Positions 16,933-37,915 of a stretch of 64,000 nt of DNA are shown here, piece after piece. The stretch is from assembly GCA_943788515.1 (NCBI GenBank), contig CALSQM010000002.1:1-64000 (forward strand), given 5' to 3'. Made by a program: the position numbers and the translations under genes. The notes beneath the pieces are model-generated. The model was not told where the DNA came from, did no database searches, and saw nothing but the letters and a program-made list of their open reading frames with translations. This stretch comes from an uncultured SAR86 cluster bacterium. GTDB lineage: Bacteria; Pseudomonadota; Gammaproteobacteria; Magnimaribacterales; D2472. Numbering within the stretch: the stretch's first letter is position 1; every line of letters starts with the position of its first letter.

Positions 16933-17802
16933 ATGGAAAAACTTCAATCAGGTTTAGTAATAGAATTTTATTCAAATAGCTGTCTTGTTAGAACGGATAG
17001 TGAAGATATCAAATGTTTAGCTATAAAAAATATTGTTGTTGGTGATATTGTCAATCTTGAGTTAATCCAAGATAGCAAAGAAGTCAGAGGTATTATAATT
17101 TCGAAAGAACCAAGGACATCATTTCTTCAAAAAAGAGAGGGCATCAAATCTAAGGCCGTTGCAGCAAATATTTCCCATGTTGGCATATTAGTTACACCTG
17201 AACCAACAACAAGTACAGAGTTTATCGACAAATGGCTGGTAACTGCTATTTCTTCAAATATAACCCCATTTATTATTAATAATAAAACAGATCTTGATCA
17301 AAGCTCTAATTACAAAAATAAGTTACAGGTATATAAAAACCTAGGCATTAAGATAATTAACTTATCAGCAAAAAATAGTATCAACACTGAAGAATTAAAG
17401 GAATATTTGAAAGCTAAGTGCGTAGTTTTTGTGGGTAATTCAGGCGCCGGCAAGTCAACGCTTACCACAAAAATAACTGGCAAGAATATTAAAACCAATA
17501 TGCTTTCAAACAACCAAGGTGTTCATACAACCTCAATATCAACGCTATATGAAATTGATAATCAAACAAAAATAATCGACTCGCCAGGTGTAAGAGATCT
17601 TCCTATCTCAGGGTTATCGAACAATGAGATTATTGAAGGCTTTACTGAAATATATTTATGCTCAAAAAATTGTAAATTTTCAGACTGCAACCATATAGCG
17701 AATGAAGGATGTGAAGTGATAAGTAAACTTTTGGATGGAGAAATTAACGAAAACAGATACAATAATTTCATTAAATTTAGGGATGGTGAAGATAATGGTT
17801 AA
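16933..17802 (+). CDS. rsgA: Ribosome small-subunit GTPase RsgA
   Basis: 289 residues from the ATG at 16933; the in-frame GTG at 16915 would add six residues. The circularly permuted G motifs appear in the expected order: NNKTDLD (G4), GNSGAGKSTLTTKI (G1) and DSPGVRDLP (G3). A C-terminal zinc motif CxxxxCxxxxCxH...C (LCSKNCKFSDCNHIANEGC) follows. RsgA releases during late 30S maturation. An OB fold occupies about 1-70. It overlaps ubiE by 8 bases and probably heads the ubi-tat operon. Confidence 0.95.
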   Translation: MEKLQSGLVIEFYSNSCLVRTDSEDIKCLAIKNIVVGDIVNLELIQDSKEVRGIIISKEPRTSFLQKREGIKSKAVAANISHVGILVTPEPTTSTEFIDKWLVTAISSNITPFIINNKTDLDQSSNYKNKLQVYKNLGIKIINLSAKNSINTEELKEYLKAKCVVFVGNSGAGKSTLTTKITGKNIKTNMLSNNQGVHTTSISTLYEIDNQTKIIDSPGVRDLPISGLSNNEIIEGFTEIYLCSKNCKFSDCNHIANEGCEVISKLLDGEINENRYNNFIKFRDGEDNG

Positions 17803-18535
17803 AAAAACTCATTTTGGATTCAAAGAAGTAGACGAGAAAGATAAGAGCACTTATGTTGGTGGTGTTTTTTCTTCTGTCGCTGAAAATTATGACATTATGA
17901 ATGATGCTATGTCTATAGGATTGCATAGATTGTGGAAAAAAATTCTTGTTGAACTTGCAGGTATTTCACAAAAAGACAGAATACTAGATATAGCCTCAGG
18001 TACTGGCGACATTGCTAAACTTATCTCAAAAGAATATCCAGAGACAGATATCTATATGACGGATATAAATATGGAGATGCTCTCGGAAGGAAGAGATAGA
18101 GCAGTCAATGAAAATTTTGCTTCAAACTGTCATTTTTGCCAATTAAGCGGTGAAATTATTCCATTTGCAGATTCTTCATTTGATACTATTACAATTGGAT
18201 TTGGCTTAAGAAACTTTACAGATAAAAAAGCAGGGCTAAAAGAAATGAAAAGATGTCTCAAAAAAGGCGGGAAATTATTGGTGCTTGAGTTCTCAAAGCC
18301 AACTAACCCTCTGTTTTCTAGAATCTATGACTGGTATTCATTTAATATTCTTCCAAAGCTAGGATCCGTTCTTGCAAATGATTCAGATAGTTATCAATAC
18401 CTTGCAGAATCAATCAGAATGCATCCAGACCAAGAATGTTTAAAAAAAATGATTTTAGAATCTGGTTTCAATGAATGTAAGTTTTATAATCTAATTAATG
18501 GAATAGTCTCGATTCATGTCGCATATGAGAAATAA
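17795..18535 (+). CDS. ubiE: Ubiquinone/menaquinone C-methyltransferase UbiE
   Basis: 246 residues from ATG 17795, which overlaps the rsgA stop by 8 bases; ATG 17783 is a possible alternative. SAM-binding motif I is LDIASGTGDIAKL (about residue 65). The UbiE-specific segments FFSSVAENYDIMND-like (VFSSVAENYDIMNDAMSIGLHRLWK), TIGFGLRNFTD and LVLEFSKP are present. It methylates the quinone ring C-2 (ubiquinone) position. It opens the ubiE-ubiJ-ubiB block, as in E. coli. Confidence 0.96.
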   Translation: MVKKTHFGFKEVDEKDKSTYVGGVFSSVAENYDIMNDAMSIGLHRLWKKILVELAGISQKDRILDIASGTGDIAKLISKEYPETDIYMTDINMEMLSEGRDRAVNENFASNCHFCQLSGEIIPFADSSFDTITIGFGLRNFTDKKAGLKEMKRCLKKGGKLLVLEFSKPTNPLFSRIYDWYSFNILPKLGSVLANDSDSYQYLAESIRMHPDQECLKKMILESGFNECKFYNLINGIVSIHVAYEK

Positions 18536-19028
18536 TTTTAATAAGAGAATTCAGGGATTTATTAGGGATATTGAAGACGCATCTCCTAATATGAAAAATA
18601 CTCTTACAGAAATTTATCCAGTAAGATTTAAACTTAATATCGATGGGTATAAAGATATTTATATCTCTCTTGAGAAAGAAATAAAAACCATGTCATTTAG
18701 CCCTATCGGGGAAATAAATTTTGAGATAGCGTCTTCATTAGCTGAGATCTTTGAATTTTTAATTACAAAAAAGATGAAGAAAAATATGTTTATTGGAGAT
18801 CAGGAAATTGCAATGGTTTTGGCAAATACTCTAAAAAAATCTGATACAGATTTTTTATATCTTATAGATAAATATTTTGGAAACATCCCAGCTGTTGTTG
18901 CTCATCTAGCCTCAAAAGCTATATCACATAAAAAATTTACTGAAAATTCTAAAGAAAAATACATTCACTCCAAATTAAGAAATCTAACAATAAGAATGGA
19001 CAGGCTCGAAGCAATAAATAATTTATGA
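18516..19028 (+). CDS. ubiJ: Ubiquinone biosynthesis accessory factor UbiJ (SCP2 domain)
   Basis: 170 residues. The sequence is weakly conserved, as is usual for UbiJ, but the size, the SCP2-like lipid-binding N-terminal half (KLNIDGYKDIYISLEKEIKTMSF), the helical C-terminus and position between ubiE and ubiB identify it. It overlaps ubiE by 20 bases (or 11 if ATG 18525 is used), and its stop overlaps the ubiB start (ATGA). UbiJ, with UbiK, organises the soluble ubiquinone-biosynthesis complex and binds isoprenoid intermediates. Confidence 0.85.
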   Translation: MSHMRNNFNKRIQGFIRDIEDASPNMKNTLTEIYPVRFKLNIDGYKDIYISLEKEIKTMSFSPIGEINFEIASSLAEIFEFLITKKMKKNMFIGDQEIAMVLANTLKKSDTDFLYLIDKYFGNIPAVVAHLASKAISHKKFTENSKEKYIHSKLRNLTIRMDRLEAINNL

Positions 19029-20509
19029 ATATTTTTATTTTAATATTTGAAGGTGTGAGAATGGCAACTCTTGGGCTAAGCCATGGTATATATAGAAACC
19101 TAACTGGAAAAAAATTAGTTAAGTATTTAGAATCTCTCGGCCCAATATTTATTAAGTTTGGTCAGCTACTATCTACCAGAACAGATATTTTAGATGAAGC
19201 CATGGCGAAGGAGCTCCAAAGCTTAACTGATAATTGCAAGCCATTTGAGGTTAGTACTTTAAGAAAAATTATTGAGAAAGAGCTTGGAGATAGTATAGAA
19301 AATTTATTTGATGAGTTTGATGAAATTCCACTTGCAGCAGCCTCCCTTGCGCAGGTTCACTCCGCAAAGTTAAAAAATGGTAAAGAAATAGTTATTAAAA
19401 CCTTGAGGCCTGATATTGAAAAAAATGTTAAGAGGAATCTAAGGCTTCTAAAAGCTGCTGCAAAATTTTCAACATATGTATACACAGAAAGTGAAAGGTT
19501 GAAGCCGCTTGAGGTTGTTAAAGACTATGAAAGAACAATCCTAAGAGAGCTTGATCTCAAGCTTGAAGCTGCCAATACGAATTTAACTAGAAAAAACTTT
19601 TTTGAAGCCGAGGAGTTATACATACCAGAGGTGTTCTGGGAGATGACTACTTCAAAAGTTATGGTGCTTGAAAGGATAGATGGAATACCTTGTACTGACA
19701 TAGAGCAAATTGAAAAATATGGTATTAATAAAAGGAGACTTGCAGAAAATGGGGTCATGATTTTTTTAAATCAAGTCTTTAGAGATAATTTTTTTCATGC
19801 CGACATGCATCCTGGTAATATATTTGTATCTAAAAAGCACCCTGAAAAACCTGGATACATTGCTATTGATTGTGCAATAACTGGTTCATTATCTAATGAT
19901 GAAAGATACATTCTTGCAAGAATGCTTCAGGCCGTTCTGAAACAAAATTATAAATCCCTTGCTCGGCTCTTTATTGGCTCTGGCTGGGTTAATCCAAATT
20001 CAAATAGCATAGATCTAGAGAATACTCTTCGTGCCTGTTGTGAACCAATTTTTGAAAAGCCATTATCTGAAATAGAATTTGGAAAACTGCTTCTTTATCT
20101 TTTTCAAAGCACTCAACCCTTTGGGTTATCCATTCAACCTTCTTTTGTTCTTCTTCAAAAGACGTTAATTCACATTGAGGGAATGGGAAGGCAAATTTAT
20201 CCTGAATTAGATTTTTGGGGTATTGCAGAGCCCTATTTAGATAATTGGTTTAAAGAACAGTTCAGCCCATTAAAATTAAAAGATTTTATAGAAGAAAATA
20301 AAGAAGATATTCTATTAAAAGGATTAGAAATGCCTACTTTTCTATATGAAGCGCTTGATGAATTAAGAGGGTATGCAAAGAATAGGCACTCTAATGATAA
20401 AAAAATATATCAAATGCAAATTCAGCTTCAAAAAGAGAAATACATCATAAGGTTCCTTGGAGTTGTTATACTAGTTATTGTTGCTTTAATGGTAATGCTT
20501 TCAAAATAA
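19025..20509 (+). CDS. ubiB: Ubiquinone biosynthesis kinase-like protein UbiB
   Basis: 494 residues; E. coli UbiB has 546, so the N-terminus is compact. The ADCK/UbiB-specific KxGQ motif is KFGQLLSTRTDIL (about residue 47), the alanine-rich nucleotide loop is AAASLAQVH, and the kinase-like catalytic segment is FHADMHPGN followed by AIDCAITG (the usual DFG replaced). The C-terminus has a transmembrane segment (about 470-490), a membrane anchor as in the family. UbiB is an ATPase needed for ubiquinone synthesis. It begins inside the ubiJ stop. Confidence 0.95.
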   Translation: MNIFILIFEGVRMATLGLSHGIYRNLTGKKLVKYLESLGPIFIKFGQLLSTRTDILDEAMAKELQSLTDNCKPFEVSTLRKIIEKELGDSIENLFDEFDEIPLAAASLAQVHSAKLKNGKEIVIKTLRPDIEKNVKRNLRLLKAAAKFSTYVYTESERLKPLEVVKDYERTILRELDLKLEAANTNLTRKNFFEAEELYIPEVFWEMTTSKVMVLERIDGIPCTDIEQIEKYGINKRRLAENGVMIFLNQVFRDNFFHADMHPGNIFVSKKHPEKPGYIAIDCAITGSLSNDERYILARMLQAVLKQNYKSLARLFIGSGWVNPNSNSIDLENTLRACCEPIFEKPLSEIEFGKLLLYLFQSTQPFGLSIQPSFVLLQKTLIHIEGMGRQIYPELDFWGIAEPYLDNWFKEQFSPLKLKDFIEENKEDILLKGLEMPTFLYEALDELRGYAKNRHSNDKKIYQMQIQLQKEKYIIRFLGVVILVIVALMVMLSK

Positions 20510-36822: not shown

Positions 36823-37407
36823 ATGAAAAACCTTTTTAAAGAATCTGAGTTTATGCTTGGAGTAACTAAGTTCAAGAATCTCCCAGAAGACATGGGAGAT
36901 GAAATTCTATTGGCTGGAAGATCAAATGCTGGCAAATCTAGTGCACTCAATGCCCTTACCGAGAATCCAAAACTAGCGAGAATAAGCAAAACGCCAGGTA
37001 GAACTACTGAAATTAATTTCTTTAGAGTTAATGAAAATTTAAAATTTGTTGATCTGCCAGGCTATGGTTTTGCTAAATCGAGCTTTCATAAAAGAAAGGA
37101 TTGGGCTCCTCTGCTCGAGGAGTACTTTGCAAAGAGGCAGGCTTTGAAAGCTGTAGTTATATTTATGGACATAAGGCACCCTTTAAAAGATAGCGATAGA
37201 GATATGATTGAACTCTGTAATAAGTCTTATACTGCTTTTATTCCAGTTCTGACTAAAAGCGATAAGCTATCAAATAATCAAAAACATAAAGCTGTATCAG
37301 CTGTAAATAGACAAATGCAAGGGGTTGAGGCTATTGCCGTCTCATCAAAAGATATCGTAGGATTTGACAAGCTTTCAAGAGCAATACTAGAATTTACTGG
37401 TGCTTAA
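36823..37407 (+). CDS. engB: Ribosome biogenesis GTPase EngB (YihA/YsxC)
   Basis: 194 residues. G1 is GRSNAGKSSALNAL (residue about 30), G2 region GRTTEINFF, G3 DLPGYGFAK, and G4 LTKSDKL. EngB assists assembly of the large ribosomal subunit. Its final codons overlap the GTG start of the next gene by 8 bases. The neighbourhood (cytochrome c4, dsbA, polA) is the usual gammaproteobacterial one. Confidence 0.96.
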   Translation: MKNLFKESEFMLGVTKFKNLPEDMGDEILLAGRSNAGKSSALNALTENPKLARISKTPGRTTEINFFRVNENLKFVDLPGYGFAKSSFHKRKDWAPLLEEYFAKRQALKAVVIFMDIRHPLKDSDRDMIELCNKSYTAFIPVLTKSDKLSNNQKHKAVSAVNRQMQGVEAIAVSSKDIVGFDKLSRAILEFTGA

Positions 37408-37915
37408 ATATCAACAGCAAGACTGTAATCTAACCTTGTCAGAAGGTCTGGAATGTTATTACGACTCCTTTCCCGATTCAAAAGAGATTTTAGAAGATGA
37501 TTTTCAATCAGGAAATCTATTAAGAGACCATGACTGTACTCATATAATTTTTGGCCTCGATATATCAATCGATCAAGAGGCTATATTAGATACCTGGGTT
37601 CTATGGGGCTCATCTTTCAAGTGGAAGTATCTTCTTGGCTATGCAAAACTGCCACAAATAAAGAAAATTCAAAACCATCTAATTGCCGAACTTGGAGTAA
37701 GAGGTTTTTTAAAACTTTATTGGAATGTTTCTGGTATAAAAAGAAAGGTTATCTTTAGAACTTTTACGATGAAAAAAAAGTGGCCTTTCCAAATGCCTGA
37801 TGAATACCTAAATATGAGAATATCTGATCTTAGAAAAACTCATGGTATAAATATTCTTACCTCAGAAGAGTTAAATTACTCTCCAACACAGTGGTCTGGC
37901 GCTATAAATAGTTAG
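37400..37915 (+). CDS. Coq4-like protein with HDxxH-x11-E motif
   Basis: 171 residues from a GTG at 37400 that overlaps engB by 8 bases. I do not recognise the whole protein, but residues 44-60 give H44-D45-x-x-H48 followed after eleven residues by E60 (DHDCTHIIFGLDISIDQE), exactly the zinc/substrate motif of Coq4. Coq4 acts in ubiquinone synthesis, in the C1 oxidative decarboxylation step or as a scaffold. The rest is soluble with several Trp and Lys-rich stretches. A quinone role fits the number of ubi genes nearby but is inference from one motif. The 3' end overlaps the TonB/TPR gene convergently by 14 bases. Confidence 0.6.
   Translation: MLKYQQQDCNLTLSEGLECYYDSFPDSKEILEDDFQSGNLLRDHDCTHIIFGLDISIDQEAILDTWVLWGSSFKWKYLLGYAKLPQIKKIQNHLIAELGVRGFLKLYWNVSGIKRKVIFRTFTMKKKWPFQMPDEYLNMRISDLRKTHGINILTSEELNYSPTQWSGAINS

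Follow-up and report, generated by a model that had tools for sequence, protein, structure and literature searches.

The locus raises the question of what a short protein with the metal-site signature of Coq4 is doing in a marine bacterium, and whether it may take the place of an enzyme of ubiquinone synthesis that the organism appears to lack. The window, by which we mean the whole stretch of 64,000 nucleotides that was analysed, is contig C2 of a SAR86 genome of 1.12 Mb, estimated to be 79% complete. A sequence-only reading had pointed to the motif and had proposed a replacement or additional quinone-ring enzyme. The analysis reported here places the protein in the Coq4 superfamily, as a short variant that may be the C1 decarboxylase otherwise missing. 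A Coq4 relative of this kind, short, bacterial and conserved in an abundant ocean group, would be a directly testable candidate, and would also offer a minimal core for studying the mechanism of Coq4.

The gene, its conservation and its neighbours

The gene lies at 37400..37915 on the + strand, starts with GTG and encodes 171 amino acids. Its start shares 8 bases with the preceding ORF (36823..37407, + strand), which we take to be engB on the strength of its earlier naming and of its P-loop. The motif reported by the sequence-only reading, HDxxH(x)11E, was recovered exactly: H44, D45, H48 and E60 (37529..37579, + strand) are where they had been placed, with 11 residues separating H48 from E60, and form a putative metal site. 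Among the 113 stop-to-stop frames of at least 80 amino acids in the window, this ORF alone contains the motif, and shuffled frames gave 4 matches in 33,900, that is about 0.013 per window. A C-terminal block, K126-x-W128 ... LR145-x4-I150 (37775..37849, + strand), aligns with the 'LDxxRxxLGI' block at the C-terminus of Coq4.

Homologues are present in 100 of the 151 genomes of the order, host included, according to a search with the single sequence, and a search with a profile of 37 sequences returned the same count. In the profile search, the holders make up 35 of the 40 good-quality genomes of the order and belong to 15 of the 22 genera sampled, the other 7 genera being without any holder. 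The gene is absent, by profile too, from 51 genomes; the 20 of these that were listed include the single-contig genome G005 (95% complete), eight genomes of genus g14 and three of g7. Family f4 retains it in 14 genomes of just 0.8-1.2 Mb. A search of 274 genomes of the class gave five holders, three SAR86 genomes and two further ones outside the order, G198 and G336, which belong to one genus. No relative was found in the viral contigs scanned, nor in a phage collection searched with the Acaryochloris protein discussed below. Genus g15 (family f3) accounts for 16 genomes among the matches, and in 8 of them two copies lie close together, for example at L055:4663-5733 (G007) and at L059:4632-7214 (G090), the latter with three other ORFs between the copies.

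Conservation of the motif among orthologues had been set beforehand as one of two checks on which the sequence-only reading could fail, the other being the predicted fold, and the motif turned out to be invariant. All 60 distinct full-length homologues, from the loci retrieved at that stage and leaving out one end-cut fragment, keep HDxxH-x11/12-E, with a spacing of 11 residues in 58 and of 12 in 2. In the alignment of 37 sequences, H44, D45, H48, G52, E60, W128 and R145 are invariant. When the 37 are joined by two cyanobacterial relatives, the motif residues are found in 39 of 39 short proteins, as well as in 17 of 17 ordinary Coq4 proteins, and in the C-terminal block W128 is kept by 38 and R145 by all 39 of the short ones. 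Codon changes at positions 1, 2 and 3 number 11, 6 and 31 relative to homologue L002, and 41, 26 and 87 relative to L010. This excess at third positions is the pattern expected for a protein under selection.

The neighbourhood of the gene is not constant. An engB-type orthologue of the upstream ORF adjoins it at four of the five other loci compared in family f1, and neighbours differ between lineages: an acyl-CoA dehydrogenase in g15 of family f3 (at both loci scanned, L055 and L063), an SDR in g19, an epimerase in g20 of family f2, and Pta with an aldehyde dehydrogenase in G336. In g17 of family f2, a neighbour (L052:5069-5500) matches the F420H2-dependent quinone reductase family with an E-value of 3e-7. 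Of 20 neighbours scanned, 18 could be given a Pfam family, and the families named include epimerase/3-beta-HSD and aldo-keto reductase, none of them constant. At the loci compared, no neighbour of the Coq4-like gene was identified as a ubi gene. As the neighbourhood varies between lineages, operon context was ruled out as a clue to function.

Relationship to Coq4

Searched directly, the window protein has no match in Pfam at E 10, to Coq4 (PF05019) or to any other family, none in NCBIfam, and none in the PDB at E 10; a PDB search with a profile of the homologue alignment was equally negative. Its relatives come nearer. Scanned singly, 17 of the 37 touch Pfam Coq4 at E 10, the best with E 0.001, which is below cut-off, and Coq4 is the family touched most frequently, every other one being touched by at most two of the 37. 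One relative has its best Pfam match to Lycopene_cyc (E 0.00015), which is stronger than every Coq4 match of the 37. A scan of the 60-genome set described in the next section with PF05019 gave a match at E 10 in nine genomes, eight of them at the gene, and none over cut-off.

A bridge is provided by cyanobacteria. A tblastn search of a plasmid collection with the window protein retrieved a 'Coq4 family protein' of Acaryochloris marina (E 4e-12, 91% of the query), which reaches 26.9 bits against Pfam Coq4, for a cut-off of 22.9, over residues 38-98 of its 151. A search with the G336 protein retrieves the same record, and a second short relative lies on a Nostoc plasmid. An HMM built from the 37 sequences finds the two proteins from cyanobacteria, one with E 1e-34 and the other with E 2.7e-21; with the same HMM, a transposase frame (E 0.001) ranks above the best ordinary Coq4 (E 0.0029).

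Profile-profile comparison became clearer with depth. With 39 short proteins, both cyanobacterial relatives included, against 17 ordinary Coq4 proteins, hhalign gave a score of 42.7 over 100 columns (E 6.9e-6, probability 84.5%), and none of 400 column shuffles reached this score, the best attaining 23.1. The alignment (columns 39-155) begins at the motif and extends as far as the 'LRxxxGI' block near the C-terminus. An earlier comparison with 13 Coq4 sequences had been borderline (P 0.0083, probability 4.8%); in shallow comparisons, the trimmed alignment scored 24.26 and was exceeded by one of 300 shuffles (24.67), and the full alignment scored 24.97 and was exceeded by none of 300. At the level of structure, an AlphaFold2 model from 15 close sequences was poor (mean pLDDT 48.6), and a fold search with it returned four PDB matches that include 6E12, a Coq4 homologue (TM 0.34, E 8.5); we treat this fold match as a hint only.

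Could the likeness of the motif be convergent, in a protein unrelated to Coq4? The lack of a direct Pfam or PDB match for the window protein, the rank of the transposase frame over ordinary Coq4 proteins, the Lycopene_cyc match and the poor structure model all speak for it. However, the bridging Acaryochloris protein exceeds the Coq4 cut-off, and the deeper profile comparison lies far beyond its shuffles and extends to the C-terminal block, so that we consider convergence very improbable. The relationship proposed by the sequence-only reading is thus upheld by two lines of comparison, the bridging protein and the profile-profile match. Judged from sequence, the connection with Coq4 holds but is a remote one, and the window protein is very probably a divergent, short Coq4 relative with an intact metal motif. 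In the alignment, the subfamily has 43 residues ahead of the motif, some 80-100 fewer than ordinary Coq4, and lacks what precedes the 'LGxxY' stretch of the latter. We do not file it as a full member of Coq4, because two defining features of that family that were examined, the protein's own Pfam score and the N-terminal part, are missing from it.

Ubiquinone genes in the window and in related genomes

The window had been said to carry several ubi genes, and this was found to be true in part. Profiles name ubiE (17735..18535, + strand; NCBIfam TIGR01934, 254 bits for a cut-off of 158) and ubiB, of the ABC1 kinase-like family (19025..20509, + strand; Pfam PF03109, E 2e-72). The ORF called ubiJ has no Pfam match, and the UbiH-type gene is a fragment of a Ubi-OHase (UbiH/COQ6-type) gene at the contig end (6..173, - strand), matching positions 2-60 of TIGR01988 with E 7.9e-7. 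A further piece of Ubi-OHase in the host genome (G000 C11:9-962) covers positions 70-387 of the same model. The left edge of the window is probably an assembly break inside a Ubi-OHase gene that is split over two contigs.

Whether enzymes of the pathway are missing, as the sequence-only reading had suggested checking, was judged from order-wide counts, the host genome being only 79% complete. The answer was affirmative for two of them. A search for UbiD across the order came up empty in all 151 genomes. UbiX was sought in a set of 60 genomes, made up of 58 SAR86 genomes (39 with the Coq4-like gene and 19 without it) plus G198 and G336, and none had a match over cut-off, which leaves 0 of 58 for SAR86. 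Weak UbiX matches below cut-off occur in 34 of the 60, mostly in frames of about 400 amino acids; from their length, we presume that they are CoaBC-like. COQ7 is over cut-off in all 60. Ubi-OHase is over cut-off in 50, with one copy in each of 48 SAR86 genomes and two copies in each of G198 and G336; the remaining 10, all SAR86, have matches that are weaker or split.

In the sample of the class, UbiD is found in 169 of the 274 genomes, and 105 have no UbiD match at E 0.001. Taking the class sample to be the same as in the search for holders, the 169 include neither G198 nor G336, and none of the five holders is among the UbiD matches. As these five represent only two lineages, this is no independent proof of a link with UbiD. 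G198, for which no UbiX match reaches the cut-off and no UbiD match is listed, is a clean case of a missing decarboxylase. This genome (genus f52 g70) has two Ubi-OHase genes in tandem (L137:1100-3479), and Coq7 and the Coq4-like gene as well.

The gap extends to genomes without the gene. All 51 lack UbiD, and the 19 of them tested have no over-cut-off UbiX and have kept Coq7. For these 19, a PF05019 scan ruled out that an ordinary Coq4 stands in place of the gene. Since UbiD and over-cut-off UbiX are missing there too while Coq7 is kept, another enzyme must act on C1 in these genomes.

Possible roles and comparison with known systems

In the available part of PMC7615680, animal COQ4 is described as a Zn-dependent C1 decarboxylase, after which COQ6 hydroxylates C1, and mutants of the HD-xx-H-(x)11-E motif gave no product; another study, cited in the part of PMC11495197 at hand, assigns to human COQ4 a single-step oxidative decarboxylation. 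The SAR86 set, in which UbiD/UbiX are missing and a single COQ6-type enzyme and Coq7 accompany a relative of Coq4, resembles the mitochondrial one, where COQ4 is the decarboxylase. From these analogies we infer metal binding, a substrate, a reaction and participation in ubiquinone synthesis. H44, D45, H48 and E60 would coordinate a divalent metal, presumably Zn2+ as in animal COQ4. The protein would decarboxylate C1 of polyprenyl-4-hydroxybenzoate, replacing UbiD/UbiX; hydroxylation at C5 and C1 would fall to the single Ubi-OHase, as it does to COQ6, and hydroxylation at C6 to Coq7. We tentatively regard the decarboxylation of C1 in ubiquinone synthesis as the likeliest single role for the protein. 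More doubtful is the complete scheme, a mitochondrion-like route in SAR86 in which a minimal Coq4 core of some 150-170 amino acids acts as Zn-dependent C1 decarboxylase beside one COQ6-type hydroxylase and Coq7. If it is true, the N-terminal part of Coq4 would be dispensable for catalysis.

A role in ubiquinone synthesis is supported by the relationship to Coq4, by the UbiD/UbiX gap, by the presence of Coq7 in every genome tested and by the retention of the gene even in the small genomes of family f4. The presence of two copies in some genomes counts against it, and so does the location of the nearest named relatives on cyanobacterial plasmids. Cyanobacteria are not known to make ubiquinone. 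The replacement of a quinone-ring enzyme, as first proposed, is made plausible by the gap, and plausible only, since the gap is also seen in genomes without the gene, a rival monooxygenase for C1 exists, and no adjoining ubi gene was recognised.

Two other scenarios are considered, and both would have C1 handled by another enzyme. The protein may be a metal protein of the Coq4 superfamily whose substrate is some other lipid or prenyl compound rather than a ubiquinone precursor. This is possible to nearly the same degree, and we rank it close behind C1 decarboxylation. The absence of the gene from a third of the order (51 of 151), with Coq7 kept in the 19 such genomes tested, would be accounted for, as would the relatives in cyanobacteria. 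The available text of PMC9774615 reports a structure of the Coq4 homologue Alr8543 with oleic acid, and the neighbours listed above, from acyl-CoA dehydrogenase and SDR to epimerase/3-beta-HSD, aldo-keto reductase and aldehyde dehydrogenase, can be counted in favour of this reading. These neighbours are not conserved, however, and therefore support no particular pathway; one of them belongs by its match to a quinone reductase family (L052:5069-5500), and possession of the gene by 35 of 40 good-quality genomes fits a core function.

Alternatively, a flavin monooxygenase of the salicylate hydroxylase type could act on C1 in the manner of UbiN, and the Coq4-like protein would do no more than assist or organise the ubiquinone complex. 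UbiN resembles salicylate hydroxylase, carries out decarboxylative hydroxylation in Rhodobacter and allows E. coli ubiD-H double mutants to make UQ8 again, as stated in the accessible portion of PMC10626278. Each of the 21 SAR86 genomes read, 15 with the gene and 6 without it, has a monooxygenase of the salicylate/3-hydroxybenzoate hydroxylase group; the 21 were chosen because the Ubi-OHase search had given a match there. However, the scores of the 20 intact copies (72.7-145.8 bits) are well short of the cut-off of the salicylate monooxygenase model (446 bits), and the copies differ in their best NCBIfam model, so that they may not all belong to one orthologous group; relative to the G005 copy, the other 20 copies have 27-49% identity. 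In the host genome, the copy (L145, G000 C10:34500-37500) can be read only as a frame of 227 amino acids, broken by error or in fact, and the monooxygenases read from G198 and G336, where the search was non-exhaustive, belong to other groups. We consider this scenario unlikely. Monooxygenases of about 500 amino acids occur in G005, which lacks the gene (L128:764-2275), and in G006, which has it (L130:879-2450), and both are just at the cut-off of the 3-(3-hydroxyphenyl)propionate hydroxylase subfamily model.

C1 decarboxylation by the Coq4-like protein, the reading that we prefer, can be set against the systems already named. A literature search at the level of listings turned up no paper about Coq4 in SAR86 and none about a shortened form of Coq4; the available part of PMC5069965 makes no mention of Coq4 or SAR86, and in the text of PMC11707229 covered by a term search SAR86, Coq4, UbiD and UbiX are all absent. 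UbiD/UbiX would catalyse the same step as that proposed for the window protein, but are unrelated to it and depend on prenyl-FMN. UbiZ of Acinetobacter is a decarboxylase candidate (PMC4746308, in the part available). UbiN of Rhodobacter capsulatus makes UbiD dispensable at C1 under air, again according to the accessible portion of PMC10626278; it is a flavin monooxygenase unrelated to the window protein, and SAR86 has a separate protein of that broad group.

Within the Coq4 superfamily, the only solved relatives found from ordinary Coq4 queries are Alr8543 of Nostoc (PDB 6E12) and PDB 3MSQ; at E 10, the window protein matches neither of them in sequence. Coq4/COQ4 (PF05019) and the window protein have in common HDxxH-x11-E, a glycine four residues past the second histidine and the C-terminal arginine block. 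They differ in that the window protein has 43 residues before the motif, whereas Coq4/COQ4 has roughly 120-145, in the distance from the glutamate to the C-terminal arginine (85 residues, against 66 in the ordinary Coq4 L070), and in that the window protein has no over-cut-off Pfam match. The Acaryochloris marina protein, WP_012166799.1, encoded on plasmid pREC3, has 28% identity with the window protein, and only the former exceeds the Pfam Coq4 cut-off. Its alignment begins at the first residue and covers 91% of the window protein, and it is like the latter in length class (151 amino acids), in the motif and in the C-terminal block.
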